Below, one piece after another: positions 2,589 through 38,800 of a stretch of 64,000 bases of DNA. The notes beneath the pieces are model-generated. The model searched no databases and was not told the DNA's origin. It saw only the letters and a program-made list of their open reading frames with translations. Each line of letters opens with the position of its first letter. The first letter of the stretch is position 1. The stretch lies in NCBI GenBank assembly GCA_029834535.1, contig JAQMWT010000389.1, forward strand, positions 222,054-286,053, read 5' to 3'. The position numbers and the translations under genes were made by a program. Origin of the DNA: Chrysophaeum taylorii. Taxonomy: Eukaryota; Sar; Pelagophyceae; Pelagomonadales; Pelagomonadaceae.

Positions 2589-2939
2589 GAGTAGGAGAGA
2601 GAGAAGGCCATATTTACTTTGTTTTATTTGATTTTATTTGATTTTACACACCATCACCTCACTCAAAACCATTCGTTCGTTCGTTCGTTCTTTCGTTCGT
2701 TCTTTCTTTCTTTCTTTCGACCCGAAAAACAACAACAACACCACCACCACCAGCACCACAGGAAACAAAGACCACCACCACCACCACCACCACCACTTTT
2801 TTTTGTGTGCAGGACAGGAAGGAGGAAAGTATCCATCCGCTGTACCACTCAATCAATACTGGTGCTGCTATTATTATTATTTCACCAGCCGTTATTAGGA
2901 ATATTGTTATTATTTAATAGTACGTTACCCTTCTTGGCG
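2589..2939. other. Intergenic: TTCG/TTTC tract and (ACC)n
   Basis: This is the spacer between the RD-rich gene and the ARS2 homologue. It holds a TTCG/TTTC microsatellite at 2671-2719, ACC and CAC runs at about 2740-2795, and an AT-rich stretch just before the ATG at 2940. It probably contains the 3' UTR of one gene and the promoter and 5' UTR of the next. No gene is supported here. Confidence 0.6.
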
Positions 2940-18560: not shown

Positions 18561-21260
18561 ATGGAGAAGTGGCGGGGTGTGGTCGAGCAGATGATCGAAG
18601 GAAGGTCGCCGTCGTCGATCCGCGGGAAGGAATCGATCGACATCGACTCGCCGGATTCGTGCGTGGCCGTGGCGGCCGTGCGGTGCGGCAAGTCGGTGTG
18701 GGAGGTATATCGCGGCGCCGAGAGCGCGCGGATGGTCGCGCGTTCGCTCGCTGTTGGTTCCCGGGCGACGAAGGAGCTTTCAGCAAAATCGACGCGGTGG
18801 GTGCACGCGTCGGACCCCGATCTCGAGTTTTCGGGGGTCGCGCGGTTCGAGAACAACGTCGGGACAATCGCGGTCGCGAGCGGCGAAAATAGCGTTTCGG
18901 CGTTCGCGATCGCGCGACGGGTCGTCGAAGAAGGCGTGCCCGCGGCCCTCCTGGAGCGCGCGCGCGCCGGCGTGCCGGTGGGAGACGAGCTGCGGGAGTT
19001 GTTGATCGCTTCGTCCGATTTTTTTTATCTCGAAGCTCCGACCGAGGCGAAGTGCTGCGAATGTCATCGGCGGTTGCCGTTGGAGAAGCTGGGGGCGTGC
19101 CCCGGTCGCGGGTGCGGCGCCCCGCTGTGCGGACGGTGTCCGCTCTCGTGCGAAAGGTGTAGGTCCCGGGACGAGACGCGGCGCGCTATCCGGATATCGG
19201 ACTTGGAGCACCTCGCCGAGCACTTCGAGTTGGCGTCGAACGACCAGGGTTTGTTGGAGAGGGATAAGTTTGGTTCGTTGGTGTGCCGCGCCGCGCGCGT
19301 CGACGACGACGACGACCCCGCTTTTCTGGACGTCTTCGACGCGATCGACGACGACGGCGACGGTCTTTTGGACTTCCGCGACGTCGCGACTTGGGCGGCG
19401 GAACGCGGCGAGCGTCTCGAGCGCGCGGATTTCGCGCCTTGGCCAATCTACAGTTGCCGGGAGGTTAGTCTGGAGACGACCCCCGTTTCGCTCGTCCTCG
19501 AGCGGGGACTTTTGAAACTCGTGCGCGACCAGAAAGAAAGGGTCGCCGTCGTGCATCCGTCGGTGATGGACGTCGAGCGCGCCTCGGCGACCGACATGAG
19601 AGTGCGCGCGCCGTCCTCCGAGGAGGAGACGATGCTGCTGTCGTTTAAGGACGAAGAGGCGTGTCTCGCAGCGCTGACGGCGCTCGCCGAAACCCTCGCC
19701 ATCTGCCGGCGGCTCCGGGCGCCCGTCGTGTCGCTCGAACCGCAGCCGAAACGCGAGCAGCGGCGCGGAAAAACAACTACGTCGAGCAGCAGCAGCCTGG
19801 CTCGAGCCATGGACGGCGTCTTTCGGGGCGGGAGTGGCGGCGGGAGTGGTCATTCTTCTTCGAGGAAGTCTGTCGGGTTTTCGGATGCCGACGAAATCGA
19901 AGTGTCGCGGGGATGGGCGTTCGACAAGGTCACGACGTCCACGGGCGTACGCTGGGAAGCCGCTCCGCCGCGTCGCGCCAAGGAAGCGTATCGCGCGGTC
20001 GTCAAGCTCGTGATCAGACCGCCGCGCGCGAGATACGAGTTGAGGGAACTCGGCCCTCGAGCCTTTGTTATTCAGAACACCTCCTACATCCGGACAGATT
20101 TTTTTGTTTTCGGAAACAAGAAGCTCGCGTGCTCGATGTGGTCCGAGGGCGCGCCGCCGGCTCCGGGTCCGTGCGTCGTCTACTCTCACGGCAACGCGTC
20201 CTGCCGCCTCGAGGCTCTTCCCCACGTCGCCCCTCTTTTGTTGATGGGGATCTCGGTGTGCGCCTTCGACGCATCGGGCTGCGGAAGAAGCGACGGCGAA
20301 TTCGTGTCGCTAGGATATCGCGAAGCCTCCGACATCGCCGCGGTCGCGCGCTACCTTCTCGCGCAAAATCGCGCGACGACGATGGCTCTGATGGGTCGGT
20401 CGATGGGCGGGGTTGCTTCAATTCTGGCTGCTTCTCGGTACGCCGATTTCGGCGGTGGCGTCGCCAAGTGCGTCGTCGCCGACTCACCCTTCGCCTCGTT
20501 AGAGGGATTGGTCGATACGCTCGCGAGAACTGCCGCGGCTACCGCCTTCTCCGCGCCTCTCCCGAGCGATCTCGCACAGGCAGCCCGCCCCATCGACCCC
20601 GACGACTACCACAACAAAAAAGAAGGACCGCAGCAACAACAACAACAACAAATCACCGACTGGTGGGACAAGATTCCAGGCGTCCTCGCGTTTTCCGCTC
20701 GATCGACCTTGGCCGAAGCGGCCGCGAGAGCCGCGGTGGATTCGGTCCGCGCCGAAGTCGAGAAGCGCGCCGCCTTTCGAATGGACGACGTCAACGCGAT
20801 GCGCGCGCTCTCCTCCCTCGACGCGCCCCTCCTCTTGCTCGCCGCCGAAGACGACGCGCTAGTGCCGCCCAGACCGAACTCGGGCGCGTTGCTCGACGCC
20901 TACCTCGCGCGCCGCGACGCCAAAAACACAAAAAACTCCCTCCTCGAGGCCCAGCTCGTTTTGTGCCGCGGCGGCCACAACGCGAGGCGCCCCGTCGTCG
21001 CCAACAGAAAAATTTACTATTTTCTCGCCCGCCACCTCCTGGGCCTCAAGGACCACCCCAAAAAGCTCCGCGACAAGCTCCAGCTCCTTTCCCCCTTTTC
21101 CGCACACCTCTCCAACCACGCCCCCCCCTGGAAGTACCACCACGGACCTTGCTCCTCCAAGCCCGTCGACGATAACACCTTTGTCTCCGGGATGACTGAC
21201 GCCCGCCACAAGCGCGCCGTCAAAGAGATATCAAATATCTTCAACAACTTACCTTCGTAA
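18561..21260 (+). CDS. Multidomain alpha/beta hydrolase with Cys-rich, EF-hand and PH-like regions
   Basis: An 899-residue protein. Residues ~165-201 hold a Cys cluster (CCECHRR... CPGRGCGAPLCGRCP...CERC) like a zinc finger. Residues ~258-286 hold an EF-hand loop (DAIDDDGDGLLDF), so Ca2+ binding is likely. Residues ~298-395 look like a PH-type module. From ~505 there is an alpha/beta hydrolase: VVYSHGNASC (the HG oxyanion region), CAFDASGCGRSDG, and the nucleophile elbow GRSMGG with Ser ~614. An Asp in AAEDDALVPP and a His in CRGGHNARR would complete the triad. A Gln run lies near 690. The family resembles membrane-associated serine hydrolases of the ABHD17 or bem46 type. The domain set suggests a Ca2+- and lipid-regulated esterase or thioesterase; the substrate is unknown. 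The first ~150 residues are unassigned. Confidence 0.75.
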   Translation: MEKWRGVVEQMIEGRSPSSIRGKESIDIDSPDSCVAVAAVRCGKSVWEVYRGAESARMVARSLAVGSRATKELSAKSTRWVHASDPDLEFSGVARFENNVGTIAVASGENSVSAFAIARRVVEEGVPAALLERARAGVPVGDELRELLIASSDFFYLEAPTEAKCCECHRRLPLEKLGACPGRGCGAPLCGRCPLSCERCRSRDETRRAIRISDLEHLAEHFELASNDQGLLERDKFGSLVCRAARVDDDDDPAFLDVFDAIDDDGDGLLDFRDVATWAAERGERLERADFAPWPIYSCREVSLETTPVSLVLERGLLKLVRDQKERVAVVHPSVMDVERASATDMRVRAPSSEEETMLLSFKDEEACLAALTALAETLAICRRLRAPVVSLEPQPKREQRRGKTTTSSSSSLARAMDGVFRGGSGGGSGHSSSRKSVGFSDADEIEVSRGWAFDKVTTSTGVRWEAAPPRRAKEAYRAVVKLVIRPPRARYELRELGPRAFVIQNTSYIRTDFFVFGNKKLACSMWSEGAPPAPGPCVVYSHGNASCRLEALPHVAPLLLMGISVCAFDASGCGRSDGEFVSLGYREASDIAAVARYLLAQNRATTMALMGRSMGGVASILAASRYADFGGGVAKCVVADSPFASLEGLVDTLARTAAATAFSAPLPSDLAQAARPIDPDDYHNKKEGPQQQQQQQITDWWDKIPGVLAFSARSTLAEAAARAAVDSVRAEVEKRAAFRMDDVNAMRALSSLDAPLLLLAAEDDALVPPRPNSGALLDAYLARRDAKNTKNSLLEAQLVLCRGGHNARRPVVANRKIYYFLARHLLGLKDHPKKLRDKLQLLSPFSAHLSNHAPPWKYHHGPCSSKPVDDNTFVSGMTDARHKRAVKEISNIFNNLPS

Positions 21261-22297: not shown

Positions 22298-24390
22298 GAT
22301 TCAAACCACAACGGATACAAGCGATTTATCTTGTAACGACCAAAACGGACCGACGACGGCATGGGGTTGTTTAAACGTCGTGGTCCGTTGATTATCAATC
22401 AAGACCTACCTCTATAGTATATGTTTTCTTCTATGGTCGGAGTGTTGCTCACGAGGGCTCGAGAGCACGCACGCAAATTAGGCCCTAACAGCAAAAAACA
22501 CACGATGTGGAATTCTGGCGGCGTCTTTGTTTTGGTTGGTGGTGTCGACCATATGGTCCGCGCAGGCCGTCCTTCTTGAGCTAGCTATATTCCCGCGACC
22601 AACCCGCGCGGCCATGAGACAGCGATTGTTTTTCGGCACGGGGGGCTCTACTCGAGTCCCGAGATGGCGATCACGTGCGCCTGGCCTTCATTCGATCAGT
22701 AAACTGGTGAGGTTGTCGCCACCCTCAACAACGAATACACGGCTTGCGCTCCTCCTGGGGAGGTAGATCATTCTCCTACTGTCGTGATGCCGGCGCCGCC
22801 ATCGCGGGGCTCTCTGTCTGTCTGTCACCACCAGCCTTTTTTTTTTCCGAGAGTCAGTCAGTCCGCTTGTGTCGTTGTGCGCGCTACTACAACGCAACTG
22901 ACCTACTTATTTATTTTTCCCGGAAAAACTAAGGCCCGTTCTCCACCAGATCAAAGTCGCAAAATTTGCAACAAAAGTCCCTTTTTTTGCGCACCCGTTC
23001 GTTCTCCACTAGGGAGGGCAAAGTTAAAAGCGAAATAGTCAAATCTGCCAAGCTCTTCAATGACGGCGAGCGGAAGAGGAGGCTCGAGCGGGAAAAAAAA
23101 GGATGCTCGAGGCCGTCTCACGAGTTATAAAACGTCATCGCCTCATTGCGCTCGTGGATTGCGACGAAGTTCGGGGCGCAGCGGCACGCCGCGGGCCCAC
23201 GCCGCTGCCTGTTGTCCACCTAAACCCTGTTGTGTGTCCGTCCGCCAAAAAACGTGTTGGAGCGCATAGCTTTAAGATAGATACACATTTTTTTCTGGTC
23301 GGGAACGGGAGTTCAGAGGGGCGCAGAGGTCATATGGGCGCGCAGGTCGTCGTCGGCAAACTTTTTCTTGATCGCGGTGGCGCTGGCGACATGGCCAGGG
23401 CTGGGGGGAACGGAGTGATCGGTTCGATCCTCGGGGTTTTTCGCCGTCCTTGCTAAGGAAGAGGTTCGTGTCGAGCTGGCGTCGAGCGTGTTGAAGGTAC
23501 AACAGGCCGCCTTTTTTTTCCAGAACCAGTTCCAGTGTCCTCAGCGTCCGGCTCGGCCCGCGTCGCCGTCGTCTGGTCCCGCAAGAGAAAAAAGTCGATC
23601 CCCAGCTTGACTTAAAGTCGTTGACCATATATCCGCGGGTGGCTGTGCTCGCGGGTCCAGTGATGAGTCGCAGGAGGTGGTGGCGGCGAATTCGGGCTGA
23701 TCTGAGAGTGCGACGGCTGCGCGTCCTGTACCGGCACGGCAGGAACACCGAGCGCAGCAGCTGGTCCCCGCATGATGACCGCGTACGCGGTGTCGGCGCC
23801 AGCTTCGTTCCAGTCGTCGTTCGGTGATTCATGCCTCGCCAGTCAGTCAACCAATGCCATCTCAGTTTAACCTATATTCGAGGCGCGCAGCGCTTCCTTT
23901 CCGAGAATTTCAGCCCGCCGCCCTATCTCCGTCTTGAAGGAAGTGTTGTCGGGGCACGTACCACGCGGATTATTTATTACCAGGCCTGCTTGGTCATGGG
24001 GGTCCGGTCCGTCCACCCGGGCGCGATCGACCGCAACGCCGACCGCTTCTACTCTTCCGACACCTTTCGAGCCACATCAACTTGGCGTTTGAAACAAAAA
24101 AACTTGGACAGAGTTTGAGGGGATAACGGACGTATGGGGCTCGAAAATAAGGGCCTGAAAATCTGAACTTTTAGCAACTCCTGCAAAAACAACTTTGTGA
24201 TTATTATTTCGAGCCGGTGGTGGGTGGAGAACGGCTCTCTAACAAATCTGTTTGTTGTAGTAGCTGCTTTTTTCGCAGACTTTATTAGCCTAGATTCGGA
24301 ACTAGATGTCTCTGGACAAAAATCGATTCGCGTGCTGTCCGTTGGTTTCGGAACATTTTCGCGGAGCTGTGTCGCGTTTTGCCAGGCGCA
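22298..24390. other. 2.1 kb without a supported gene
   Basis: There are scattered protein-like scraps only: minus strand near 23480-23620 (GGLLYLQHARRQLDTNLFLS, VNDFKSSWGSTFFSCG) and plus strand near 23970-24100 (SVHPGAIDRNADRFYSSDTF). They are in different frames and interrupted by stops, so they look like a decayed gene or transposon. An imperfect direct repeat CGTTCTCCAC(C/T)AG lies at ~22935 and ~23001. No RNA gene is seen. Confidence 0.4.
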
Positions 24391-25485
24391 ATGATGATGA
24401 TAAGAGGAGCAGTGGTAGTTATGGTGGTGAGGAGCGCGATAGCCGCGCCGTACGATGAGGGGCCCGAGAGGGTCGTCGACGAGATGAGGGCGCAGATCGA
24501 GGCCCTCCTCGCCACCGACGTAAACTGCACACTGCTTCCAAAGTTTGTCCGGCTCGTGTTCCACGACTGCGTAGGCGGGTGCGACGGGTGCGTCGACATG
24601 AGCGACCCCGAGAACGCGGGGCTCCTGACACCGATCGAGGCCCTGATGCCCATCTGCGAGAATATCCCCGAGGGAAGCGGCGTGACGCGGGCCGACTGCT
24701 GGGCCCAAGCAGCGCTGTCGGCCGCGGAATCGAGCCAGGACCGCTCGCGGTTCGCGTTTCCGCTAGAGAAGGTCGGCCGCCAGACCTGCGAGGCTCCCAA
24801 CGGGGTCGGGGGGCCAGAACGGACGATGCCGAATTCCCACGCGGGGACTTCGGAGCTGATCGAATGGTTCAGAGAATGGTTTGGGTTCTCGAAACGCGAA
24901 ATCGTCGCTTTGATGGGCGCTCATACGCTCGGCGGCGCGATACGAAACAATTCTGGGTACAACGGTTTCTGGACGCCGACCTGGTGCTCGCTGAACAACG
25001 ACTATTACGACAGCTTGTGGCAAATCTGGTCGCAAAAACTGACCGAGGAACCAAACGGCCATTTCCAGTGGGAGCTTACGAGTCCGCCCGACGCGGTCTA
25101 CGAGCACCGAACCGACTCGGCGGGCTGCCCCTTCCTAAATCTCCCTGGTAGAGGGCCCCCGATACCCCCCGACACCGACCTCGAGGCCTGCCCGCCCCTT
25201 TTTATGCTCAACGTCGACGTCGCCATGGCGAAGGATTTTGGGGACAAACTCAACTCGCACTCGGGCCAAGTCGACTGTTTATGGGTCGACCAACCCGACG
25301 ACTACGACCCCCGCGAACCCTGTGCCGACGCCCGCCTCCTCGACTTCGTCCTCGCCTACCGCGACGACAACCGCCTCTGGGTCAGAGACTTCCAGCAGGT
25401 TCTCACAAAGCTAATCAACACCAAGGCCAGGCCCCTCACCAAGCTCGACACGACCGACTCGCAGATGTATGACGGCTTTTTCTGA
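24391..25485 (+). CDS. Secreted plant/fungal-type heme peroxidase
   Basis: A 364-residue protein started at MMMIRGAV, giving a signal peptide that ends around AIAAPYDE. The distal site is RLVFHDC (Arg54, His58), followed by GGCDGCVD with a calcium-site Asp. The proximal site is ALMGAHTLGG (His178). These are the catalytic residues of the non-animal heme peroxidase superfamily. The Cys-rich secreted architecture and length fit class II-like enzymes more than ascorbate peroxidase, although class I and II are hard to split by eye. It probably oxidises phenolic or other reductants with H2O2 outside the cell or in the endomembrane system. There is one Asn-Cys-Thr glycosylation site near the N-terminus (Asn46) and a second at NNS near 185. 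Confidence 0.85.
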   Translation: MMMIRGAVVVMVVRSAIAAPYDEGPERVVDEMRAQIEALLATDVNCTLLPKFVRLVFHDCVGGCDGCVDMSDPENAGLLTPIEALMPICENIPEGSGVTRADCWAQAALSAAESSQDRSRFAFPLEKVGRQTCEAPNGVGGPERTMPNSHAGTSELIEWFREWFGFSKREIVALMGAHTLGGAIRNNSGYNGFWTPTWCSLNNDYYDSLWQIWSQKLTEEPNGHFQWELTSPPDAVYEHRTDSAGCPFLNLPGRGPPIPPDTDLEACPPLFMLNVDVAMAKDFGDKLNSHSGQVDCLWVDQPDDYDPREPCADARLLDFVLAYRDDNRLWVRDFQQVLTKLINTKARPLTKLDTTDSQMYDGFF

Positions 25486-26207: not shown

Positions 26208-26384
26208 GTCGAGATCAACAATTTGGATTGTTGACGTAACCGTCACTTATCTTTATTAACTGTCCCCGTGAAACGGTCCGTTAGGAGGGTGGGTCGTCGG
26301 TTTCATGATCCAAGGGAGGGATCCTCTTTTGCTTGCGAAAAAAAGTAGATCCGTTGGTTGTTGTTGTTCTTCCCCTTCCAAGAG
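26208..26384. promoter_or_regulatory. Shared divergent promoter region
   Basis: This 177-bp gap separates the start codons of the minus-strand PH-like gene and the plus-strand GPCR-PIPK gene. It must hold both promoters and 5' UTRs. I see no obvious TATA or other named element. Confidence 0.5.
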
Positions 26385-28499
26385 ATGGAAGGGCGTCGGT
26401 TGCGTCGCTTATTGTTCTGGCTCGGACCCGTGTCCGGATGCGTGGCGTACGCGAGCGTATGGATGGTCGCGGGGCCTTCGCGGCGGCAGCGGCTGTGCTT
26501 CGTGAGCGGTGGCGGCTTAGGTCTCTTTTTCGCCTTGGTTCTCCTCGTCGCTCACCGACGTGGTCCGCGGCGGCTGCGCGAACATCCGCAGCCAATAATA
26601 TTTTGGCGGTGCGTCGCCGACGCCGGGACGGCCGTCCAGTTCATCGCATACGCCTACGCGCGGCGGCGGTGCGATACCCCCCGGGGACGCGTATCTTCGG
26701 GTCTCCTGGAATTCTCGATGATCGCGTCGGAAGGCTGGTACTTCGCGAGCGTGCACGACGCGAGAGCGAGCTTCCGGTCCCCGTTTACGCCCAAGGTCGC
26801 GCTCATGCGGTGCTACCACCGGATCGTCTGGGTGTCGGCGCTTTTTATGGCCGTATTTGTCGCGGAGATTCCGGGCGTCGACGGCGAGTATTTGATCGGA
26901 GAAGAAATGTTCGGGTATTGTTTGTTCAAGTCGAGCAAAGTGTGGCCGCCTTGGGTGTTTCTGTACGCGCCGATCCTCGTGCTGTACGCCGGGGCCCTCG
27001 CGATGACGCTCGCCTGCCTGGGGTCGGCCTACGAACGCTCGGCGAAGACTCGAGCCTTCGCCGAACACCTTCACGCGATAGCGGTCACGAACGCCAACCT
27101 CGTGGCCGCCTGCATGTACTGGGGTTTATTCTCGATCTTCTATTTTGGGTCGTCGTACATGAGAATCCGCGGGGCGACGTACGCGGCCGCCCTCCTGCTT
27201 CCCGCGAAGGGCGCGGTCGACTTTATGGTTTGGCTTCTTCCTCTGGACCCTTCCGACGTCGGCGCCGCGTTGGGCTTGGGGAATATGGTAGACGAGCCGA
27301 GGTGCTCGTCGGTCGACGATCGGGACGACCTTCTCGCCTCGGCCCAGGGTCGCGAGATCTTCGATTACGTGCGGTGTGGCATCGCCGAGAGTCGCGGCCG
27401 CGCGGTCGTGATGCTCGCGCGCCGCCGAGACGAGCCCGCGCTCGGTTTTTGGGCGTTCGCGAGACGCGCGCTCGCTCCAACCGTCGAGGCCCGACAGGTC
27501 CTGCGCGACCTCTGTACCGAGTCGCACCACCCGGTCTGCGTCGTCGACGCCTCGAGAGTACTGTTTCGATCGATCGCGCGCGATTCTCTAAGGCGGCTTC
27601 GGGCGACCTTTGGGATATCGGAAACCGACTACGCGCGCTCGTGGCGGGCCGTCACCAAGGCCAGATACTCGGACGGTGCGAGCGGCGCCTTCTTCCTCTT
27701 CTCAGCCGACGAGCGTTTCCTGGCAAAGACGGCAACGGCGACCGAAATCCGAGCGCTCGCGCGACGCGCCGACGCCCTCGCCGCCTACTGCTCTCCAGAC
27801 ACCAAGCTCTGCCGAATCGTCGGCGCCCACACGCTCGAGATTTACGGCCAGCCCTTCCATCTTGTCGTCCAGGAAAACCTATTTTTCGGCTCGGACGCGA
27901 GCCTCCTCCGACGTTACGACATCAAGGGGAGCTCGGTCAACCGCCGCTCCGGCGATAAGTTCGAGAAGAGTCGCGCGCTCCTCCTCGAGCAGCCGCTCAA
28001 TTATTCTAGAGGAGGAGGAGGAGGAGGAGGATGTGTCGGCAAGGACGACGACCTTCAGGACGATCTCCACATCGATCCTCGGGACGCTGCGCTGCTTCTC
28101 GCGCAGCTCGACCGAGACTCGCGCTTCCTCGCCTCCCAGAATATCATGGACTACTCCCTGCTCATCGGGGTCGACGACCTGCCCAGACCGCCTCTCTGTT
28201 GTACCGACAACAACAGAAACTCCACATCATCGTCGTCCTCCTCTTCGTTTTTGGTGCAAGCAGAAGCGTGCCGCTACGACGCGACCTTCGGCGGACCTTC
28301 GGCCTACACGCTTGCCATCATCGACCTCCTCCAGGAGTGGAACTGGGCGAAAAAGCTCGAGCGCGCCTACAAAATTATATTCCGCTGCCGACCCCCCCTC
28401 GGCCTCTCGGCGATCGACCCCGTTCGCTACCAACGTCGCTTCATGGCCCGCGTCCACGACATCATCCCGATTGCGCGAGATGCCGAGATCGTCGCGTGA
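26385..28499 (+). CDS. GPCR-phosphatidylinositol phosphate kinase fusion (GPCR-PIPK)
   Basis: A 704-residue protein from the ATG giving MEGRRLRRLLFW. Residues ~1-300 have about seven hydrophobic segments, with a Cys/Trp pattern like Dictyostelium RpkA and the oomycete GK proteins. Residues ~430-700 are a PIP kinase catalytic domain: FLAKT (ATP-site Lys448), RYDIKGS (~510-516), MDYSLLIG (~588-595), IIDLLQEWNWAKKLE and the activation-loop-like GLSAIDPVRYQRRF. Gly-rich and Ser-rich low-complexity inserts interrupt the kinase. The fusion should couple an external signal directly to PI(4,5)P2 or a related lipid. Type I versus II specificity is not decided here. A PH-like gene shares its promoter, which fits lipid signalling. 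Confidence 0.85.
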   Translation: MEGRRLRRLLFWLGPVSGCVAYASVWMVAGPSRRQRLCFVSGGGLGLFFALVLLVAHRRGPRRLREHPQPIIFWRCVADAGTAVQFIAYAYARRRCDTPRGRVSSGLLEFSMIASEGWYFASVHDARASFRSPFTPKVALMRCYHRIVWVSALFMAVFVAEIPGVDGEYLIGEEMFGYCLFKSSKVWPPWVFLYAPILVLYAGALAMTLACLGSAYERSAKTRAFAEHLHAIAVTNANLVAACMYWGLFSIFYFGSSYMRIRGATYAAALLLPAKGAVDFMVWLLPLDPSDVGAALGLGNMVDEPRCSSVDDRDDLLASAQGREIFDYVRCGIAESRGRAVVMLARRRDEPALGFWAFARRALAPTVEARQVLRDLCTESHHPVCVVDASRVLFRSIARDSLRRLRATFGISETDYARSWRAVTKARYSDGASGAFFLFSADERFLAKTATATEIRALARRADALAAYCSPDTKLCRIVGAHTLEIYGQPFHLVVQENLFFGSDASLLRRYDIKGSSVNRRSGDKFEKSRALLLEQPLNYSRGGGGGGGCVGKDDDLQDDLHIDPRDAALLLAQLDRDSRFLASQNIMDYSLLIGVDDLPRPPLCCTDNNRNSTSSSSSSSFLVQAEACRYDATFGGPSAYTLAIIDLLQEWNWAKKLERAYKIIFRCRPPLGLSAIDPVRYQRRFMARVHDIIPIARDAEIVA

Positions 28500-29047: not shown

Positions 29048-32000
29048 CTAGGACGAAGAAATGTCACCGCCGGCGCCGAGGGCGGGTTTGTTGTTGTTGT
29101 TGTTGTTGTAGTTGGCGCTCCAGATGTGATTTGTGTCGAGGGTCATGGAGATCGCTCCCAGCGCCGAGGCGACGGTGAAACCAAAGGAGGAGACGAGGGT
29201 AATGCCGAGGGCGGTGAAGATGCCGACGCGGGCGAAAAAGAGCTTGGATCTGTCGAGGAGGTCGAGGAGGGGTTTGTTGTCGTCGCGAGCTTTGGGAAGT
29301 CTTGCTGTCGACTCGGAAAACCACGACTTTAGGTCGAAGGCCGGGGCCCCCTTGTCGTCGAGACGGTCGAGGCGAGGAAGAGTCGCCCGCGCGTCGGCGA
29401 GGGCGCGCGCAACGCGCTCGTCGGCCTGGACGCGGGATTGGGCCTCCGCAAAAGCGTGCGCGACGCGGTCGTCGAGACCCGACGCATCTTGCTGCTTTGG
29501 AACGTACATGCCGCTCGACTCGCGTTTCCAAAATAAGTCGCGACCAAAGTCGCTGAGTTGTTTTGGCATCCACCGGGGCGGGTACCACGGCAGCTCCGAG
29601 GCGACGTCGACGAAGCCCGACGAGTACCGTTTGGTGCGACGGTGCCTCCAGGGAAACCGCGGGAGCGTCGGTAGCCGCTCGCGGCCGTAACCGACGGGCG
29701 TCCACTGCGCGTCGTACGCGTACGTATCGTTCGACGCTCCGACCATCCACTCGTCTCGGATAGCCGTGAGGTTAGCGATGTAGTCGTTCAGACTCCGAAG
29801 CGCGTTGCTGAGGGGGTTTGCCCGCTTCTTCTCCGACGGTCCCGACTCCATTCTTATGTCCTTCAGCGAGCTCAGGTAGTCCCCGGGACCCGGCGACGAC
29901 GACGACTCGCTCGGGGACGATCTAGCCATTGAGCTTAGGTAGTCGGCCGGACCAGTCGCATCGCCGATTGACGACAAGTACTCCTGCGTCGCGCCGGCGA
30001 TAGACGACAAATAGTCGGAAGGTCCTGACCCCGGAGCACCCGTCGACATGGCAGACACCGACGAGAGGTAATCGCCCGGCCCGGTTCCGGACGGAGCGGA
30101 AGCAACCTTGGGTGTCGACATGGTAGAGACCGACGACAAGTAGTCGGCCGGACCGGCACCAGACGGCGCCGGGCCTCTCGCAGTGGACCCAGCTATCGAG
30201 CTGAGATAGTCGCCGCCCGCCGCCACAGGAGCCGTCGGAGCAGACACACTGCTTGTCGAGCCGGCGATCGACGACAAGTAGTCAGTAGGTCCTGCCACAG
30301 ATGGCGCGGAGACTGCCTTACCAGTTGACATCGAGCTGACCGAGGACAGGTAGTCAGCAGGCCCAGCCCCAGGTGGTGCTGATGTTTTCGGGCCCGGCGA
30401 CATCGAGCTGACCGAGGACAGGTAGTCAGCAGGCCCAGCCCCAGGCGGAGCCGACGCAACCTTGGGTGTAGATATGGTCGAGACCGACGACAAGTAGTCA
30501 GCAGGTCCAGCGCCAGGAGGTGCCGACGCCTTCGCGCCCGGCGACATCGAGCTCACCGACGAGAGGTAGTCAGCAGGTCCAGCGCCAGGAGATGCCGACA
30601 TTTTCGTGCCCGGGGACATCGAGCTCACCGACGAGAGGTAGTCAGCAGGCCCAGCGCCAGGTGGTGCCGAAACGGACGTGCCCGACGACATCGAGCTCAC
30701 CGACGAGAGGTAGTCAGCAGGCCCAGCGCCAGGCGGAGCCGACGCAACTTTGGGCGTTGACATAGAGGAGACTGATGACAAGTAGTCAGCAGGCCCAGCG
30801 CCAGGTGGTGCCGACGTTTTCGTGCCTGGCGACATCGTGCTCACCGACGAGAGGTAGTCAGCAGGCCCAGCGCCAGGCGGAGCCGACGCAACTTTGGGCG
30901 TTGACATAGAGGAGACTGATGACAAGTAGTCAGCAGGCCCAGCGCCAGGTGGTGCGGATGTTTTCGTGCCCGGAGACATCGAGCTCACCGAGGACAGGTA
31001 GTCAGCAGGTCCAGCGCCAGGAGGTGCCGACATTTTCGTGCCCGGCGACATCGAGCCCACCGACGAGAGGTAGTCAGCAGGTCCAGCGCCAGGAGGTGCC
31101 GACATTTTCGTGCCCGGCGACATCGAGCCCACCGACGAGAGGTAGTCAGCAGGCCCAGCGTCAGGTGGCGCCGAAACTGACGCGCCCGACGACATCGAGC
31201 TCACCGACGAGAAGTAGTCAGCAGGCCCAGCGCCAGGTGGCGCCGACATTTTCGTGCCCGGCGACATCGAGCCCACCGACGAGAGGTAGTCAGCAGGCCC
31301 AGCGCCAGGTGGCGCCGAAACTGACGCGCCCGACGACATCGAGCTCACCGACGAGAGGTAGTCAGCAGGCCCAGCGCCAGGTGGCGCCGAAACTGACGCG
31401 CCCGACGACATCGAGCTCACCGACGAAAGATAGTCAGCAGGCCCAGCGCCAGGTGGCGCCGAAACTGACGCGCCCGACGACATCGAGCTCACCGACGAGA
31501 GATAGTCAGCAGGCCCCGCGCCCGGTGGTGCCGAAACTGACGCGCCCGACGACATCGAGCTCACCGACGAAAGATAGTCAGCAGGCCCCGCGCCCGGTGG
31601 TGCCGAAACTGACGCGCCCGACGACATCGAGCTCACCGACGAGAGGTAGTCAGCAGGCCCCGCGCCCGGTGGTGCCGAAACTGACGCGCCCGACGACATC
31701 GAGCTCACCGACGAGAGGTAGTCAGCAGACCCAGCGCCCGGTGGTGCCGAAACTGACGCGCCCGACGACATCGAGCTCACCGACGAAAGATAGTCAGCAG
31801 GCCCAGCGCCAGGTGGCGCCGAAACTGACGCGCCCGACGACATCGAGCTCACCGACGAGAGATAGTCCGCAGGCCCAGCGCCAGGTGGTGCTGAAACTGA
31901 CGCGCCCGACGACATCGAGCTCACCGACGAGAGGTAGTCTGCAGGCCCAGCGCCAGGTGGTGCCGAAACTGACGTGCCGGACGACATCGAGCTCACCGAA

Positions 32001-35000
32001 GAGAGGTAGTCAGCTGGCCCAGCGCCAGGTGGTGCTGATGTTTTCGTGCCCGAGGACATCGAGCTCACCGAAGAAAGATAATCTGAAGGCCCCGCCCCCG
32101 GTGGTGCCGACGCGGTCTTGCCCGACGATGACATCGAGCTGACCGACGAGAGATAGTCAGTTGGGCCAGCACCGGATGGCGCAGACGCTGTTACAGGCAC
32201 CGAGCTAGCGATCGAGGACAGGTAGTCGCCACCCGCGGGAGCAGCTGGTGATGCCGGAGTTGACGTAGGCGATGCAGCAGATGCAATTATCGGTGAGCTA
32301 GCAATCGAGGACAAATATTCGGCGGGACCAGAGCCAACCGGAGTCGACGCAGGCTTGCCTGGTGCCATGGCAGATACCGAGGAGAGGTAGTCGGCAGGGC
32401 CAGAACCCGGGGGCGCGTGTGCGACCTTTGACGTCGACATTGCTGACACAGACGACAGATAGTCGGCAGGACCGGCACCTGGCGGAACTGACATCCTCGC
32501 AGGTGCCTGGGCAGCGATGGATGACAAGTAGTCAGCAGGACCTGTGCCCAAAGGCGCCGTCGGAGCCTGAGGGGTCGACTTTGTCGTTACCGACGCCAAG
32601 TAGTCAGGAGCAGATTCCGCGGGAGTCGCGGTCTCGGCCGGCGTCTTGCCGGCAATTGAGGAAAGGTAATCACCAACTGCTGCCGCAGCCGACAACGCTG
32701 ACGATGCCACCCTGCTTACCCTGCCGGCGATCGAAGACAGATACTCTCCGGCTCCTGAACCTTTCTTTGGCGCCGGCGGTGTGGACGCAGAGACTGTCCC
32801 GACAGACATGGCGGAGACTGACGACAGATAGTCGGCAGGTCCAGATCCCGGTGGCGCAGAAGCAACTTTCGATGTGGACATTGCAGACACCGACGACAGG
32901 TAATCGGCAGGACCATTGACCGGAGGAGCCAAAACGGTCTTTCCAGCGGACACGGCAGTCACCGACGACAAGTAGTCGGCAGGCCCGGCACCAGCAAGCG
33001 AGGAGCTCGTGACAGGTGCTGAGCCAGAGATCGAGCTCAGGTAGTCGCCACCAGCAGGTGCCGCCCCAGCCGAAGGTGTCGTCGGTGCAGAAGCAACACT
33101 TGCTGAGCCCGCGATCGACGACAAGTAGTCACCAGGACCAGCACCAGGGGGAGCTGACAACTTTGCGCCCGATGACATCGAGCTCACAGACGAAAGGTAA
33201 TCGGCGAGTCCAGCGCCAGATGGCGCAGATGCGACCCCTTGCGTCGACATGGCTGACACAGACGACAGGTAGTCGCCTGTTCCAGCACCCGGCACAGGTG
33301 CCGAAGGAGCAGCTGGGGATGAAGCAGCACCAGTCGACCCGGCAATCGACGACAAGTAGTCAGCAGGCCCCGCACCAGGTGGCGCTGACGTCGTCTTGCC
33401 AGCCGACATCGAGCTTACCGACGAAAGATAGTCAGAGGGCCCAGCACCATGAGGTGCAGAGGTCTTGGTGGGCGTCGATCCAGCAATAGAGGACAAGTAG
33501 TCGCCAAAGGCAGGCGCAGCACCTTGGGTTTCTGTCGCGAGTGACTTACTCGTCGAGCCAACGATCGACGACAGGTAATCACTAGGCCCAGAGCCAGAAG
33601 AAACAACAGTCTTGCCAGACGACATTGAGCTCACTGAAGAAAGGTAATCCGCAGGACCAGAACCAGGCGGCGCAGACGCAATCTTGGGCGTTGACATGGA
33701 TGACACGGACGACAGATAGTCGGCCGGACCGGTGCCCGGCTGCGGGGAGATCTTGGCAGGTGGTGAGCCAGCGATTGAACTGAGGTAGTCGCCTCCTACA
33801 GGTGCCGACTGCGCTTCACCAGAAATCACCCCGGTCGTCGAGCCACCAATTGATGTCAAGTAGTCAGCAGGACCAGACCCAGAAGCAGGCTTGGTCACAC
33901 CAGACGACATCGAGCTGACCGACGAGAGATAGTCCGAGGGCCCAGCCCCAGGTGGCGAAGAGACGGTCTTTCCCGGCGACATCGAGCTCACCGACGAGAG
34001 GTAGTCAGCAGGCCCAGCACCAGGTGGCGCAGAGACGGTCTTTCCCGGCGACATCGAGCTGACCGACGAGAGGTAGTCAGCAGGCCCAGCACCAGGTGGC
34101 GCAGAGACGGTCTTTCCCGCCGACATCGAGCTCACCGACGAGAGGTAGTCGGCCGGACCAGAACCAGGTGGCGCAGAGACGGTCTTTCCCGCCGACATCG
34201 AGCTGACCGACGAGAGGTAGTCAGCAGACCCAGCGCCAGGAGGCGCCGACGCTGTCTTGCCCGGCGACATCGAGCTGTCCGACGAGAGGTAGTCAGCAGG
34301 CCCGGCGCCAGGTGGCGCCGACGCTGTCTTTCCCGCCGACATCGAGCTCACCGACGAGAGGTAGTCGGCCGGACCAGAACCAGGTGGCGCAGAGACGGTC
34401 TTTCCCGCCGACATCGAGCTGACCGACGAGAGGTAGTCAGCAGGCCCGGCGCCAGGAGGCGCCGACGCTGTCTTGCCCGGCGACATCGAGCTGACCGACG
34501 AGAGGTAGTCAGCAGGCCCGGCGCCAGGAGGTGCCGACGCTGTCTTGCCCGGCGACATCGAGCTGACCGACGAGAGGTAGTCAGCAGGCCCAGCGCCAGG
34601 AGGTGCCGAAGCGGTCTTGCCCGGCGACATCGAGCTGACCGACGAGAGGTAGTCAGCAGGCCCGGCGCCAGGAGGTGCCGACGCTGTCTTGCCCGGCGAC
34701 ATCGAGCTGACCGACGAGAGGTAGTCAGCAGGCCCAGCACCAGGTGGCGCAGAGACGGTCTTTCCCGGCGACATCGAGCTCACCGACGAGAGGTAGTCAG
34801 TCGGACCAGAACCAGATGGCGCCGACGCTGTCTTTCCCGACGACATCGAGCTGACCGACGAGAGGTAGTCGGCCGGCCCAGCACCAGGTGGCGCAGAGAC
34901 GGTCTTTCCCGGCGACATCGAGCTCACCGACGAGAGGTAGTCAGTCGGACCAGAACCAGATGGCGCAGAGACGGTCTTTCCCGCCGACATCGAGCTCACC

Positions 35001-38000
35001 GACGAGAGATAGTCGGCCGGACCAGAACCAGGTGGCGCAGAGACGGTCTTTCCCGCCGACATCGAGCTCACCGACGAGAGGTAGTCAACAGGACCAGAAC
35101 CAGGTGGCGCAGAGACGGTCTTGCCGGGCGACATCGAGCTCACCGACGAGAGGTAGTCAGCAGGCCCGGCGCCAGGTGGCGCCGACGCTGTCTTGCCCGG
35201 CGACATCGAGCTGACCGACGAGAGGTAGTCAGCAGGCCCAGCGCCAGGAGGTGCCGAAGCTGTCTTGCCCGGCGACATCGAGCTCACCGACGAGAGGTAG
35301 TCAGCAGGCCCAGCGCCAGGTGGCGCCGACGCTGTCTTGCCGGGCGACATCGAGCTGACCGACGAGAGGTAGTCAGCAGGCCCAGCGCCAGGAGGCGCCG
35401 ACGCTGTCTTGCCGGGCGACATCGAGCTCACCGACGAGAGGTAGTCAGCAGGCCCAGCGCCAGGAGGCGCCGACGCCGTCTTGCCCGGCGACATCGAGCT
35501 CACCGACGAGAGGTAGTCAGCAGGCCCAGCGCCAGGTGGCGCCGACGCCGTCTTGCCCGGCGACATTGAGCTCACCGACGAGAGGTAGTCAGCAGGCCCA
35601 GCGCCAGGAGGCGCCGACGCCGTCTTGCCCGACGACATCGAGCTCACCGACGAGAGGTAGTCAGCAGGAACAGCGCCAGGTGGCGCCGACGCCGTCTTGC
35701 CCGGCGACAACGAGCTGACCGACGAGAGGTAGTCGGCCGGACCAGCACCAGGTGGCGCCGACGCGGTCTTGCCCGGCGACATCGAGCTGACCGACATCGA
35801 ACTGACCGACGAGAGGTAGTCAGCAGGCCCAGCGCCAGGTGGCGCCGACGCTGTCTTGCCCGGCGACATCGAGCTCACTGACGAGAGGTAGTCAGCAGGC
35901 CCGGCGCCAGGTGGCGCCGACGCTGTCTTGCCCGGCGACATCGAGCTGACCGACGAGAGGTAGTCAGCAGGCCCAGCGCCAGGTGGCGCCGACGCTATCT
36001 TGCCCGACGACGTCGAGCTCACCGACGAGAGGTAGTCAGCAGGCCCAGCGCCAGGTGGCGCCGACGCGGTCTTGCCGGACGACATCGAGCTGACCGACGA
36101 GAGGTAGTCGGCAGGCCCAGCGCCAGGAGGTGCCGACGCGGTCTTGCCGGGCGACATCGAGCTCACGGACGAGAGGTAGTCAGCAGGCCCAGCGCCAGGA
36201 GGCGCCGAAACGGACGTGCCCGAAGACATCGAGCTGACCGACGAGAGGTAGTCAGTAGGCCCAGCGCCAGGAGGCGCCGACGCTGTCTTGCCCGGCGACA
36301 TCGAGCTCACCGACGAGAGGTAGTCAGCAGGCCCAGCGCCAGGAGGCGCCGACGCTGTCTTGCCCGGCGACATCGAGCTGACCGACGAGAGGTAGTCAGC
36401 AGGCCCAGCGCCAGGAGGCGCCGACGCCATCTTGCCCGACGACATCGAGCTCACCGACGAGAGGTAGTCAGCAGGCCCAGCTCCAGGTGGCGCCGACGCG
36501 GTCTTGCCGGACGACATCGAGCTCACCGACGAGAGGTAGTCAGCAGGCCCAGCGCCAGGTGGCGCCGACGCTGTCTTGCCCGGCGACATCGAGCTGACCG
36601 ACGAGAGGTAGTCAGCAGGCCCAGCGCCAGGTGGCGCCGACGCTATCTTGCCCGACGACATCGAGCTCACCGACGAGAGGTAGTCAGCAGGCCCAGCGCC
36701 AGGTGGCGCCGACGCGGTCTTGCCGGACGACATCGAGCTGACCGACGAGAGGTAATCGGCAGGCCCAGCGCCAGGAGGCGCCGACGCGGTCGTGCCGGGC
36801 GACATCGAGCTCACGGACGAGAGGTAGTCAGCAGGCCCAGCGCCAGGAGGCGCCGAAACGGACGTGCCCGAAGACATCGAGCTGACCGACGAGAGGTAGT
36901 CAGTAGGCCCTGCCCCAGGTGGCGCAGAGACTGTCGTACCAGACGACATCGAGCTGACCGACGAGAGGTAGTCGGCAGGCCCAGCGCCAGGAGGTGCTGA
37001 CACTTTGGTGCCTTGCGACATCGAGCTGACCGATGAGAGGTAGTCCGTCGGCCCTGCTCCTGGTGGTGCTGACGCTGTCTTGCCCGACGACATCGAGCTC
37101 ACTGACGAGAGGTAGTCCGCAGGCCCAGCGCCAGGGGGTGCCGTCGCAGTCTTGCCCGACGACGACATTGCGCTGACCGACGAGAGGTAGTCAGCAGGCC
37201 CAGCGCCAGGTGGTGCCGCCGCAGTCATGCCCGACGATGACATCGAACTCACCGACGATAGGTAATCGGCAGGGCCGATACCTGGCGGCGCAGAAGGGAC
37301 CTTCGGCGTGGACATGGTTTCCACGGACGACAAATAGTCGGGCGTGCCGGCGCCTGGCGGTGCGGTCGTCCTTGCTGGCGCTGAGGCAGCAATCGAGCTG
37401 AGGTAGTCGCCGCCCGCCGGCGGTGCCGACGAAACCTTCGCGGGCGTCGTTGTGCTCGTGATTGAGGCCAAATAATCAGCAGGACCAGAGCCGGGAGGAG
37501 CAGAGGGCATCGTCCTGCCGGATGTCCGCGCGGACACCGACGAGAGGTAGTCCGCAGGCCCGGAGCCCGGCGGCGCAGACGCGATACTAGGCGTCATCGA
37601 TCTGGCCTCCACCGACGAGAGGTAATCAAGCGGGCCAGAACCAGGAGGCGGCGGCGGCGTCGACATCTGCGGAGAGGCCGCGATGGAGCTCAGGTAGTCG
37701 CCTCCCGCGGGCGCAGCCGGAACATTCGCCGAGCTGGCAATCGACGACAGATAGTCAGAAGGCCCCGAGCCGGGGGGGGCTGACGGCATAGCCTTGCCGG
37801 CGGTTCTGGCGGACACCGACGATAAGTAGTCGGAGGGGCCCGAGCCAGGCGGCGCGGGAGCGACCGTTTGGGTCGACCTCGCGGACACCGACGATAAGTA
37901 GTCGGAGGGGCCCGAGCCAGGCGGCGCGGGAGCGACCGTTTGGGTCGACCTCGCAGACACCGACGATAAGTAGTCGGAGGGGCCCGAGCCAGGCGGCGCG

Positions 38001-38800
38001 GGAGCAACCGTTTGGGTCGACCTCCCGGACACTGATGATAAGTAGTCAGCAGGAGGAGGCGGCGTTCCCTGGGCGACAGAGCTGAGGTAGTCTCCGACGG
38101 AAGTCGCGGCCGAGAGAGCGGACGATGCCGATTTTGTCACCTTTCTGGAAACAGAAGAGAGGTAGTCCGCTTGTCCCGGCCCTGGCATTGTAGTCTTGGG
38201 TGGGGACCGCATGGTGACCGAGGACAAGTAGTCCGGCGCGCCAGTCCCCGACGAGTAGTGCTTGATTGGTGACCTCGCGGAAACCGAACCTAAGTAATCG
38301 GAAGGCCCAACTCCCGGAGCATAACTTCTCTTCGGCGATGCGCCCGCGATCGCCGACAAGTAATCCCCTGCGGCGACCGCCGGCGCGACCTTGGCCACCG
38401 GCGCCTTTTGGGGGGGCGGCGGTGGCGGCGGCGTGACGGCTTGCGGCGCGACGGCTTGCGGCGTCGCGCCGCCTATACTCGAGAGATAGTCGCCCGCAGA
38501 AGGTCCAGTAATCGACCCCAGGTAGTCGGAGACCCCCGTCGTCGGCGCACTCCCCGCGATCGACGACAAATAATCACCCATCTCCTTCGCCGCGCTCCCA
38601 GATAGCGACGATAGGTAGTCGCTCGCAGCGCCACCGACAGCTTCGCTTGCTGACGCGTACGCCTCGGTCGACTCGCCGCCCAGCGAGCTCAAATAGTCCG
38701 AATCTGTGAGAGTGGCCGTGTTCTTGGTCCCCGTTTTTTTCGGGACCGACGTGAACGCCGCCGCGAACGGCACGACGGCGACGACGACAACGACGCGCAT
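29048..38800 (-). CDS. Giant plastid-targeted DYLSS-repeat protein
   Basis: About 3250 residues without a stop or intron. I chose the ATG at 38800, which begins MRVVVVVAVVPFAAAFTSVPK: a signal peptide with Phe just after the predicted cleavage site and a basic, hydroxylated stretch, the bipartite presequence of complex red plastids (ASAFAP-type). An in-frame start 27 codons upstream would hide it. After ~230 residues of irregular (D/E)YLSS/DYLGS motifs comes a long Ala/Pro/Gly/Ser array with period 24 residues, core unit SAPPGAGPADYLSSVSSMS, more than 100 DYLSS in all. The C-terminal ~270 residues are non-repetitive, with Trp/Pro-rich segments, a charged helix, and one hydrophobic segment (FFARVGIFTALGITLVSSFG) likely to be a membrane anchor, then poly-Asn. 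I know of no named family. A disordered, multivalent plastid scaffold is my inference. Confidence 0.75.
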   Translation of the reverse strand: MRVVVVVAVVPFAAAFTSVPKKTGTKNTATLTDSDYLSSLGGESTEAYASASEAVGGAASDYLSSLSGSAAKEMGDYLSSIAGSAPTTGVSDYLGSITGPSAGDYLSSIGGATPQAVAPQAVTPPPPPPPQKAPVAKVAPAVAAGDYLSAIAGASPKRSYAPGVGPSDYLGSVSARSPIKHYSSGTGAPDYLSSVTMRSPPKTTMPGPGQADYLSSVSRKVTKSASSALSAATSVGDYLSSVAQGTPPPPADYLSSVSGRSTQTVAPAPPGSGPSDYLSSVSARSTQTVAPAPPGSGPSDYLSSVSARSTQTVAPAPPGSGPSDYLSSVSARTAGKAMPSAPPGSGPSDYLSSIASSANVPAAPAGGDYLSSIAASPQMSTPPPPPGSGPLDYLSSVEARSMTPSIASAPPGSGPADYLSSVSARTSGRTMPSAPPGSGPADYLASITSTTTPAKVSSAPPAGGDYLSSIAASAPARTTAPPGAGTPDYLSSVETMSTPKVPSAPPGIGPADYLSSVSSMSSSGMTAAAPPGAGPADYLSSVSAMSSSGKTATAPPGAGPADYLSSVSSMSSGKTASAPPGAGPTDYLSSVSSMSQGTKVSAPPGAGPADYLSSVSSMSSGTTVSAPPGAGPTDYLSSVSSMSSGTSVSAPPGAGPADYLSSVSSMSPGTTASAPPGAGPADYLSSVSSMSSGKTASAPPGAGPADYLSSVSSMSSGKIASAPPGAGPADYLSSVSSMSPGKTASAPPGAGPADYLSSVSSMSSGKTASAPPGAGPADYLSSVSSMSSGKMASAPPGAGPADYLSSVSSMSPGKTASAPPGAGPADYLSSVSSMSPGKTASAPPGAGPTDYLSSVSSMSSGTSVSAPPGAGPADYLSSVSSMSPGKTASAPPGAGPADYLSSVSSMSSGKTASAPPGAGPADYLSSVSSTSSGKIASAPPGAGPADYLSSVSSMSPGKTASAPPGAGPADYLSSVSSMSPGKTASAPPGAGPADYLSSVSSMSVSSMSPGKTASAPPGAGPADYLSSVSSLSPGKTASAPPGAVPADYLSSVSSMSSGKTASAPPGAGPADYLSSVSSMSPGKTASAPPGAGPADYLSSVSSMSPGKTASAPPGAGPADYLSSVSSMSPGKTASAPPGAGPADYLSSVSSMSPGKTASAPPGAGPADYLSSVSSMSPGKTASAPPGAGPADYLSSVSSMSPGKTASAPPGAGPADYLSSVSSMSPGKTVSAPPGSGPVDYLSSVSSMSAGKTVSAPPGSGPADYLSSVSSMSAGKTVSAPSGSGPTDYLSSVSSMSPGKTVSAPPGAGPADYLSSVSSMSSGKTASAPSGSGPTDYLSSVSSMSPGKTVSAPPGAGPADYLSSVSSMSPGKTASAPPGAGPADYLSSVSSMSPGKTASAPPGAGPADYLSSVSSMSPGKTASAPPGAGPADYLSSVSSMSPGKTASAPPGAGPADYLSSVSSMSAGKTVSAPPGSGPADYLSSVSSMSAGKTASAPPGAGPADYLSSDSSMSPGKTASAPPGAGSADYLSSVSSMSAGKTVSAPPGSGPADYLSSVSSMSAGKTVSAPPGAGPADYLSSVSSMSPGKTVSAPPGAGPADYLSSVSSMSPGKTVSSPPGAGPSDYLSSVSSMSSGVTKPASGSGPADYLTSIGGSTTGVISGEAQSAPVGGDYLSSIAGSPPAKISPQPGTGPADYLSSVSSMSTPKIASAPPGSGPADYLSSVSSMSSGKTVVSSGSGPSDYLSSIVGSTSKSLATETQGAAPAFGDYLSSIAGSTPTKTSAPHGAGPSDYLSSVSSMSAGKTTSAPPGAGPADYLSSIAGSTGAASSPAAPSAPVPGAGTGDYLSSVSAMSTQGVASAPSGAGLADYLSSVSSMSSGAKLSAPPGAGPGDYLSSIAGSASVASAPTTPSAGAAPAGGDYLSSISGSAPVTSSSLAGAGPADYLSSVTAVSAGKTVLAPPVNGPADYLSSVSAMSTSKVASAPPGSGPADYLSSVSAMSVGTVSASTPPAPKKGSGAGEYLSSIAGRVSRVASSALSAAAAVGDYLSSIAGKTPAETATPAESAPDYLASVTTKSTPQAPTAPLGTGPADYLSSIAAQAPARMSVPPGAGPADYLSSVSAMSTSKVAHAPPGSGPADYLSSVSAMAPGKPASTPVGSGPAEYLSSIASSPIIASAASPTSTPASPAAPAGGDYLSSIASSVPVTASAPSGAGPTDYLSSVSSMSSSGKTASAPPGAGPSDYLSSVSSMSSGTKTSAPPGAGPADYLSSVSSMSSGTSVSAPPGAGPADYLSSVSSMSSGASVSAPPGAGPADYLSSVSSMSSGASVSAPPGAGPADYLSSVSSMSSGASVSAPPGAGSADYLSSVSSMSSGASVSAPPGAGPADYLSSVSSMSSGASVSAPPGAGPADYLSSVSSMSSGASVSAPPGAGPADYLSSVSSMSSGASVSAPPGAGPADYLSSVSSMSSGASVSAPPGAGPADYLSSVSSMSSGASVSAPPGAGPADYLSSVGSMSPGTKMSAPPGAGPADYFSSVSSMSSGASVSAPPDAGPADYLSSVGSMSPGTKMSAPPGAGPADYLSSVGSMSPGTKMSAPPGAGPADYLSSVSSMSPGTKTSAPPGAGPADYLSSVSSMSTPKVASAPPGAGPADYLSSVSTMSPGTKTSAPPGAGPADYLSSVSSMSTPKVASAPPGAGPADYLSSVSSMSSGTSVSAPPGAGPADYLSSVSSMSPGTKMSASPGAGPADYLSSVSSMSPGAKASAPPGAGPADYLSSVSTISTPKVASAPPGAGPADYLSSVSSMSPGPKTSAPPGAGPADYLSSVSSMSTGKAVSAPSVAGPTDYLSSIAGSTSSVSAPTAPVAAGGDYLSSIAGSTARGPAPSGAGPADYLSSVSTMSTPKVASAPSGTGPGDYLSSVSAMSTGAPGSGPSDYLSSIAGATQEYLSSIGDATGPADYLSSMARSSPSESSSSPGPGDYLSSLKDIRMESGPSEKKRANPLSNALRSLNDYIANLTAIRDEWMVGASNDTYAYDAQWTPVGYGRERLPTLPRFPWRHRRTKRYSSGFVDVASELPWYPPRWMPKQLSDFGRDLFWKRESSGMYVPKQQDASGLDDRVAHAFAEAQSRVQADERVARALADARATLPRLDRLDDKGAPAFDLKSWFSESTARLPKARDDNKPLLDLLDRSKLFFARVGIFTALGITLVSSFGFTVASALGAISMTLDTNHIWSANYNNNNNNKPALGAGGDISSS
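30040..38060. repeat. 72-bp coding minisatellite
   Basis: Tandem 72-bp units (minus-strand coding) with anchor GACGAGAGGTAGTCAGCAGG on the plus strand. Two rather homogeneous blocks (about 30340-32130 and 33950-37260) flank a more diverged centre, with older, irregular units at both ends. Within the second block a 9-unit (648-bp) segment is duplicated: GCGCCGAAACGGACGTGCCC occurs at about 36202 and again at 36850. Multiples of three are kept throughout, so the array expands without breaking the frame. Long plus-strand frames here are shadows. Confidence 0.9.

Follow-up and report, generated by a model that had tools for sequence, protein, structure and literature searches.

What is the role of a protein of 3,250 residues in which one short motif recurs well over a hundred times? 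This question is raised by a minus-strand reading frame in the window (the whole stretch of DNA analysed, 64,000 nucleotides). No stop interrupts the frame between 38881 and the terminal stop codon at 29048-29050; its ATG lies at 38800, and the product is called protein A here. The initial annotation had described an uninterrupted frame of about 3250 codons, and the exact length proved to be 3,250 codons. The N-terminus of protein A is MRVVVVVAVVPFAAAF, and the frame and its leader are laid out as follows:

29048..38800, minus strand: complete reading frame of protein A, 3,250 aa plus stop, with selection in frame.
38756..38800, minus strand: signal peptide MRVVVVVAVVPFAAA, putative cleavage before Phe16, from the sequence and by comparison with light-harvesting leaders of the same genome.
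38699..38755, minus strand: short transit-peptide-like stretch FTSVPKKTGTKNTATLTDS, residues 16-34, from the sequence and an alignment to the leader of a paralogue, protein B.

Judged by eye, the leader ends in AAA before a Phe, and a signal peptide ending AAAF, as first described, is present at the N-terminus in the form of MRVVVVVAVVPFAAA followed by F. The 19 residues that start at this Phe (16-34) are rich in Ser, Thr and Lys. A Phe at +1 of the signal peptide is a mark of plastid import in red-lineage complex plastids, and it is present, as judged by eye, in both A and B, for which the genome's own antenna genes served as reference. The light-harvesting family has 84 matches in this genome; leaders ending in Ala before Phe were found in 19 of the 20 best loci of these 84 matches, the remaining one ending SAAY, and many of the 20 are near copies that by eye fall into seven groups, six of them with Phe. 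Because of these antenna leaders and those of A and B, plastid import of protein A, which had been proposed from the Phe at +1, appears well supported. The light-harvesting genes are clustered on contigs C88, C539, C390, C533 and C518, with several per contig and equal or nearly equal scores. The same genome carries rbcL (488 aa) on a contig of 103.6 kb, and the nearest solved structures are 7yk5 and 5mz2. Since 5mz2 is the Rubisco of the diatom Thalassiosira antarctica, according to the sections of PMC10288592 used here, the red-type Rubisco of this genome is probably Form ID. By eye, the frame adjoining rbcL is a putative rbcS.

The repeat itself makes up the following feature:

29864..38698, minus strand: array in which 125 cores of DYLSS type are set in Ala/Pro/Gly/Ser linkers, residues 35-2979, from the core count and from tandem repeats of 72, 144 and 216 bp.

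Counted with the pattern [DE]Y[LF][SAGT][SA], the 125 cores comprise 115 DYLSS, 3 EYLSS, 2 DYLGS, 2 DYLAS, 1 DYLSA, 1 DYLTS and 1 DYFSS, which upholds the earlier claim of more than 100 DYLSS repeats in Ala/Pro/Gly/Ser linkers. The description of a 24-residue repeat with an invariant DYLSS stands in part: exactly 24 residues is the commonest spacing (84 of 124) and the core Tyr is found in 125 of 125 cores (the search pattern itself demands Tyr), but DYLSS as such occurs in only 115. Spacings of 20-31 residues account for 115 of the 124, with eight below 20 residues and one of 42. When mature protein A was shuffled 500 times at constant composition, the mean was 0.10 cores and the maximum 3. 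The aromatic residues of the array are Tyr in 128 of 130 cases, 125 of these being the core Tyr, and Trp is absent; there are 83 Lys, about two per three repeats, and protein A without its C-terminus is acidic (pI 4.6). Disorder-promoting residues amount to 71%, by a measure of composition alone, and the linkers are probably disordered. Tyr cores at regular spacing within Ala/Pro/Gly/Ser linkers agree with the sticker-and-spacer layout that had been suggested.

The DYLSS core is under selection on the protein. In protein A, the core pN/pS is 0.198 (bootstrap 0.15-0.23, among distinct core sequences; pS 0.72), the core pN being biased down to some degree by the choice of units by protein pattern, and the ratio is 0.54 in the linkers before the core and 0.84 in those after it. 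Shifted-frame controls over the protein A cores gave 0.90 and 2.84 (units with stops dropped). For paralogue B the core pN/pS is 0.163, and shifted frames over A and B span 0.83-3.5. Because the core ratio is low in frame and not in the shifted frames, this is a real coding array; the frame of protein A also stays open across every length change in the array.

A search of the genome (70.8 Mb, 697 contigs) revealed the second array, protein B, of 1,634 aa (contig C392:67387-72288; L009:2388-7289, with the stop just below), whose first 1,633 residues served as the query in the protein B searches. Protein B has 67 cores at a median spacing of 22, ends in ...GDYLSSISR, has a pI of 4.5 and contains no Trp. 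Its leader, MRLLLVAGLADA followed by F (ADA before Phe), aligns with that of protein A, and apart from this leader it has no clear membrane segment. The leader and the sticker are common to A and B, the linker and the anchor are not, and the comparison thus points to the sticker as the working part of both proteins; the copy numbers differ too.

Protein A ends in a region of a different kind:

29051..29863, minus strand: non-repetitive basic C-terminal region, residues 2980-3250, from a genome query, a PDB search and AlphaFold2.
29171..29227, minus strand: membrane segment VGIFTALGITLVSSFGFTV, residues 3192-3210, with a mean Kyte-Doolittle value of 1.82.

The pI of residues 2991-3250 is 9.6. 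A 265-aa query from this region matched nothing but itself in its own genome at E<=10, the best E against the PDB was only 0.92, and a single-sequence AlphaFold2 model of residues 2959-3250 was uninformative (mean pLDDT 41). The hydrophobicity of residues 3192-3210 is in line with the C-terminal membrane segment noted at the outset. There are five Lys or Arg in the 20 residues preceding this segment and none in the following 20; since these charges lie on the array side of the helix, the array should face the stroma rather than adopt a type I secreted topology.

The initial annotation knew of no such family, a statement that no longer holds: the repeat is similar to the Pfam family DPC2 (PF25195, "Diatom pyrenoid component 2"). 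DPC2 was the best Pfam model for all six protein A queries (five pieces, two of them overlapping, and the whole protein), with E-values for the pieces of 1.9e-7, 1.2e-6, 0.005, 0.068 and 0.092 (the last two overlap). The two best pieces are:

32000..33829, minus strand: array part with the strongest DPC2 match, E 1.9e-7, 31.9 bits, 5 stretches.
34001..35800, minus strand: second DPC2-matching array part, E 1.2e-6, 29.3 bits, 10 stretches.

For whole protein A, DPC2 was the one match and a weak one (E 0.74, 10.7 bits). The first 296 aa of protein B also had DPC2 as best model (E 1.4e-4), and whole protein B gave no Pfam match at E<=10. Eight decoys were built from the two best protein A pieces, both shuffles coming from the first. 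The match was lost in both shuffles, both core-scrambled and both reversed decoys, in a scan whose filters drop most matches with E above 0.1, and it fell to E 0.58 and 0.95 in the two decoys in which the cores were kept and the linkers shuffled. The likeness thus exceeds composition (E 1.9e-7 and 1.2e-6 versus six decoys without a match), and because core-scrambled decoys lose the match and linker-shuffled ones weaken it, the match depends on the core and is strengthened by the register of the linkers. Neither A nor B reaches the curated DPC2 cut-off of 70 bits, the best score being 31.9 bits; since all scores lie under this cut-off, protein A is best regarded as DPC2-like and is not filed as a DPC2 member. 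The name DPC2 reportedly traces to a tagging and pull-down study of the diatom pyrenoid; the pyrenoid role of DPC2 is taken here from its Pfam name. When the genome was searched with PF25195, the single place returned (E 1.36) lay in a frame without a YL repeat; since A and B were both missed, this search is insensitive to the DYLSS repeat.

Homologue searches, each of which scored about 8,000 candidates, yielded for residues 1-520 of protein A a single protein, P0002, at E 3.3e-3 and with 33% identity across 23% of the query; no other database relative was credible. P0002 is 289 aa long, carries a precomputed PF25195 label and a STASAAF leader, and scores 39.7 bits in the local DPC2 model. 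Its nine [SGDT]YL units have Gly at -5 in five of nine and at -3 in six of nine, with Leu (8) or Val (1) at +5. It resembles protein A in its plastid-type leader, its repeated YLxx[LV] units and its Ala/Pro/Gly/Ser linkers, but differs in scale (289 aa and 9 YL units versus 3,250 aa and 125 units), in the membrane segment, which is a feature of A, and in the position of the acid residue, which mostly follows YL in P0002 (YLD, 5 of 9) and precedes it in protein A (DYL). A 20-column HMM built from the P0002 units put 18 A units and 54 B units above 6 bits, with any such unit in 1 of 400 shuffles. The reverse HMM, from A and B units, found one P0002 unit above 6 bits (13.5), a weak result given that 3 of 500 shuffles have one, at up to 9.9. 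The sole match to residues 2700-3250 of protein A, P0001 (1,800 aa), has GYLSS-like runs and no plastid-type leader and was set aside as compositional. No relative was found for region 1-420 of protein B (about 8,000 candidates scored), and NCBIfam gave no match. Among the literature matches listed for DYLSS or for YLDSL, YLDNL and YLDAL, none was related by title.

To our knowledge, EPYC1 and CsLinker carry no membrane anchor. Compared by description with these two, protein A shares multivalent, spaced stickers, and its 24-residue spacing lies inside the range of 20-120 residues that is considered feasible for linking Rubiscos, and serves to search for such linkers, in the part of PMC11570498 consulted; 116 of its 124 spacings do so (115 at 20-31 and one of 42), with eight below 20. 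EPYC1 and CsLinker differ in serving green-lineage Rubisco with helical stickers, as far as the same part describes them (PMC11570498). PYCO1, the Rubisco linker of Phaeodactylum, has in the cited sections a pI of 10.03, repeats of about 80 residues and KWSP and GTGYNP stickers, its Tyr and Trp motifs driving self-association and its Trp motif Rubisco binding (PMC10288592). Like PYCO1, of which the same sections say that the Tyr motif aids self-association (PMC10288592), protein A is a repeat protein of the plastid whose aromatic stickers sit in linkers of low complexity; unlike PYCO1, which is basic and has KWSP stickers, its array has a pI of 4.6 and no Trp. The lack of Trp rules out the KWSP Rubisco-binding sticker in the A array and in B, and neither A without its C-terminus (4.6) nor B (4.5) shares the basic character of PYCO1 (pI 10.03). 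Protein A therefore resembles PYCO1, by description, in logic and not in sequence. There is no sequence homology among EPYC1, PYCO1 and CsLinker themselves, according to the excerpt of PMC13159521 available to us. Among pyrenoid membrane proteins, RBMP2 of the Chlamydomonas pyrenoid tubules combines membrane segments with six Rubisco-binding motifs, but differs from protein A in having few motifs plus a folded domain, and its loss of the six motifs did not abolish formation of the reticulated region, in the portion of the report cited (PMC13345187). BST4, another Chlamydomonas pyrenoid-tubule membrane protein, was judged not to be a tethering protein in the text seen of PMC11638005. Because BST4 and RBMP2 have Rubisco-binding motifs and yet are no simple tethers in these excerpts (PMC11638005, PMC13345187), claims of tethering by protein A call for caution.

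The reading that we favour, with a probability of roughly 0.55, is that protein A serves as a giant DPC2-like scaffold in the stroma, anchored to a membrane and probably part of the pyrenoid. It agrees in part with the membrane-anchored scaffold first suggested, for which Rubisco, thylakoids or a light-harvesting assembly were the proposed partners. Encoded in the nucleus of a red-lineage alga, protein A would be imported into the plastid stroma, where it would display 125 weak binding stickers of the form [DE]-Y-L-S-S-[VI], spaced about 24 residues apart along a linker that is probably disordered. The C-terminal helix would anchor it in a membrane of the plastid, that of the thylakoid being the most likely, and the array would face the stroma. 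The anchored protein A and protein B, which is without a membrane segment, would jointly condense a pyrenoid component into a cross-linked matrix, A holding this matrix on a thylakoid-type membrane and B linking it in solution. In this scheme we infer the cleavage of the leader, the disorder of the linkers, the identity of the membrane and the pyrenoid location of A. That Rubisco itself is the sticker partner is a guess with the odds somewhat against it; alternatively, the stickers might contact a shell protein, another matrix protein or one another. The acidity of the array (pI 4.6 in A, 4.5 in B), in which it is unlike PYCO1, counts against the favoured reading.

An anchored array might instead bind photosystem or light-harvesting proteins or stack thylakoids, organising thylakoids or antennae with no role in the pyrenoid. 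The membrane segment, the probably stromal array and the 84 light-harvesting matches in the genome would all suit this explanation, which we nevertheless think unlikely, as the sole named family resembling the repeat is a pyrenoid component, DPC2, and paralogue B, outside its leader, lacks a membrane segment. Less likely still is a mucin-like adhesin of the cell surface reached by the secretory route, with a signal peptide, a Pro/Ser-rich repeat, a membrane helix and a short tail. Protein A does have a type I-like layout, and S/A/T-P dipeptides, of which it contains 188, are possible glycomodules; yet Phe stands at +1 in both paralogues as in the antenna genes, Cys is absent from both A and B, both sequons of A fall outside the array and there are none in B, and the charges flanking the membrane helix favour the opposite topology. 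Moreover, tblastn with 800 array residues turned up no relative among genomes of bacteria and archaea, where none of 249 pattern stretches matched, and viral contigs held no relative of 933 residues of A (15 stretches). The case named at the outset as refuting a plastid role, that the repeat would be an extracellular adhesin family, thus gained little support from the bacterial, archaeal and viral searches, from the absence of Cys or from an array without sequons. Viral contigs likewise contained no relative of P0002 (9 stretches), and 2,155 bases used as a query matched no phage.

Tandem Repeats Finder reported 72-bp units and their multiples (144 and 216 bp) at 73 to 96 percent matches, which suggests that parts of the protein A array were recently amplified. 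It is conceivable, though improbable, that the array grew by unequal crossing-over from a short DPC2-like ancestor and that its length has no role. Similar 72-bp units do follow one another in long runs, with 88-96 percent matches in two of the Tandem Repeats Finder rows, and A and B differ in linkers and copy number. A core pN/pS of 0.16-0.20 in A as well as in B, next to drifting linkers, nevertheless shows that the cores are kept, if not that 125 of them are needed.

If the favoured reading of a DPC2-like stromal scaffold is true, a DYLSS-like repeat in a diatom pyrenoid component and a giant membrane-bearing form elsewhere in the red lineage would have a sticker in common, and this shared sticker would offer a direct way to study how compartments of red-type Rubisco form and become attached to membranes; protein A may help to organise a compartment for carbon dioxide fixation. 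A wider and distinctly doubtful extension is that A and B are the giant branch of a DPC2-like YL-sticker superfamily that forms the main pyrenoid scaffold outside diatoms, in which A would tie the condensate to thylakoids through more than 100 stickers and the motif, where it follows a transit peptide (e.g., in a cupin protein on contig C552), would be an address to the condensate.

This cupin came from scans of the genome with motif patterns that exclude the serine codons AGY. DY[LF]S[STA][ILM] matched 31 places, of which 20 belong to A and B and 11 do not (backward control 8), and of the 11 off-array places only the C552 cupin looked meaningful. DY[LF]S[SA]V gave 154 matches versus 0 in the backward control; off the array there were four among the matches listed (two being near copies), all in frames that are short or unremarkable. 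With a looser pattern around YL (17 matches versus 13 in the control), only the same cupin stood out. It is a two-cupin protein (EutQ-like, PF05899; L042:756-1622, minus strand) with a signal-like N-terminus, DYLSSL about 35 residues in and then two EutQ-like cupin stretches; Phe is missing from the likely +1 position of its leader, and the same cupin family was matched at two other loci of the genome, on C252 and C336. In Chlamydomonas, a Rubisco-binding motif is said to serve as an address, and the cupin would matter if DYLSSL were an address of this kind. Its DYLSSL may be due to chance, since the off-array matches are near the control level (11 versus 8).

Antisense to the array, a frame of 407 aa at 30919-32142 (plus strand) is probably a by-product of the repeat. 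The neighbouring plus-strand frames at 26358-28499, 24379-25485, 18561-21260 and 2619-4784 match a PIP5K kinase, a peroxidase, an alpha/beta hydrolase and SERRATE/Ars2, respectively, and are uninformative on the role of the array. From 40001 to 64000, which reaches the contig end, GC drops from about 0.6 to 0.42-0.52, and the GC skew is negative, strongly so except around 52-58 kb. Two telomere motifs were sought and neither was found. The frame at 48184-49485 matches the reverse transcriptase family RVT_2 (E 1.4e-17), and because of this match the part from 40001 to 64000 may be a transposon-rich contig end.
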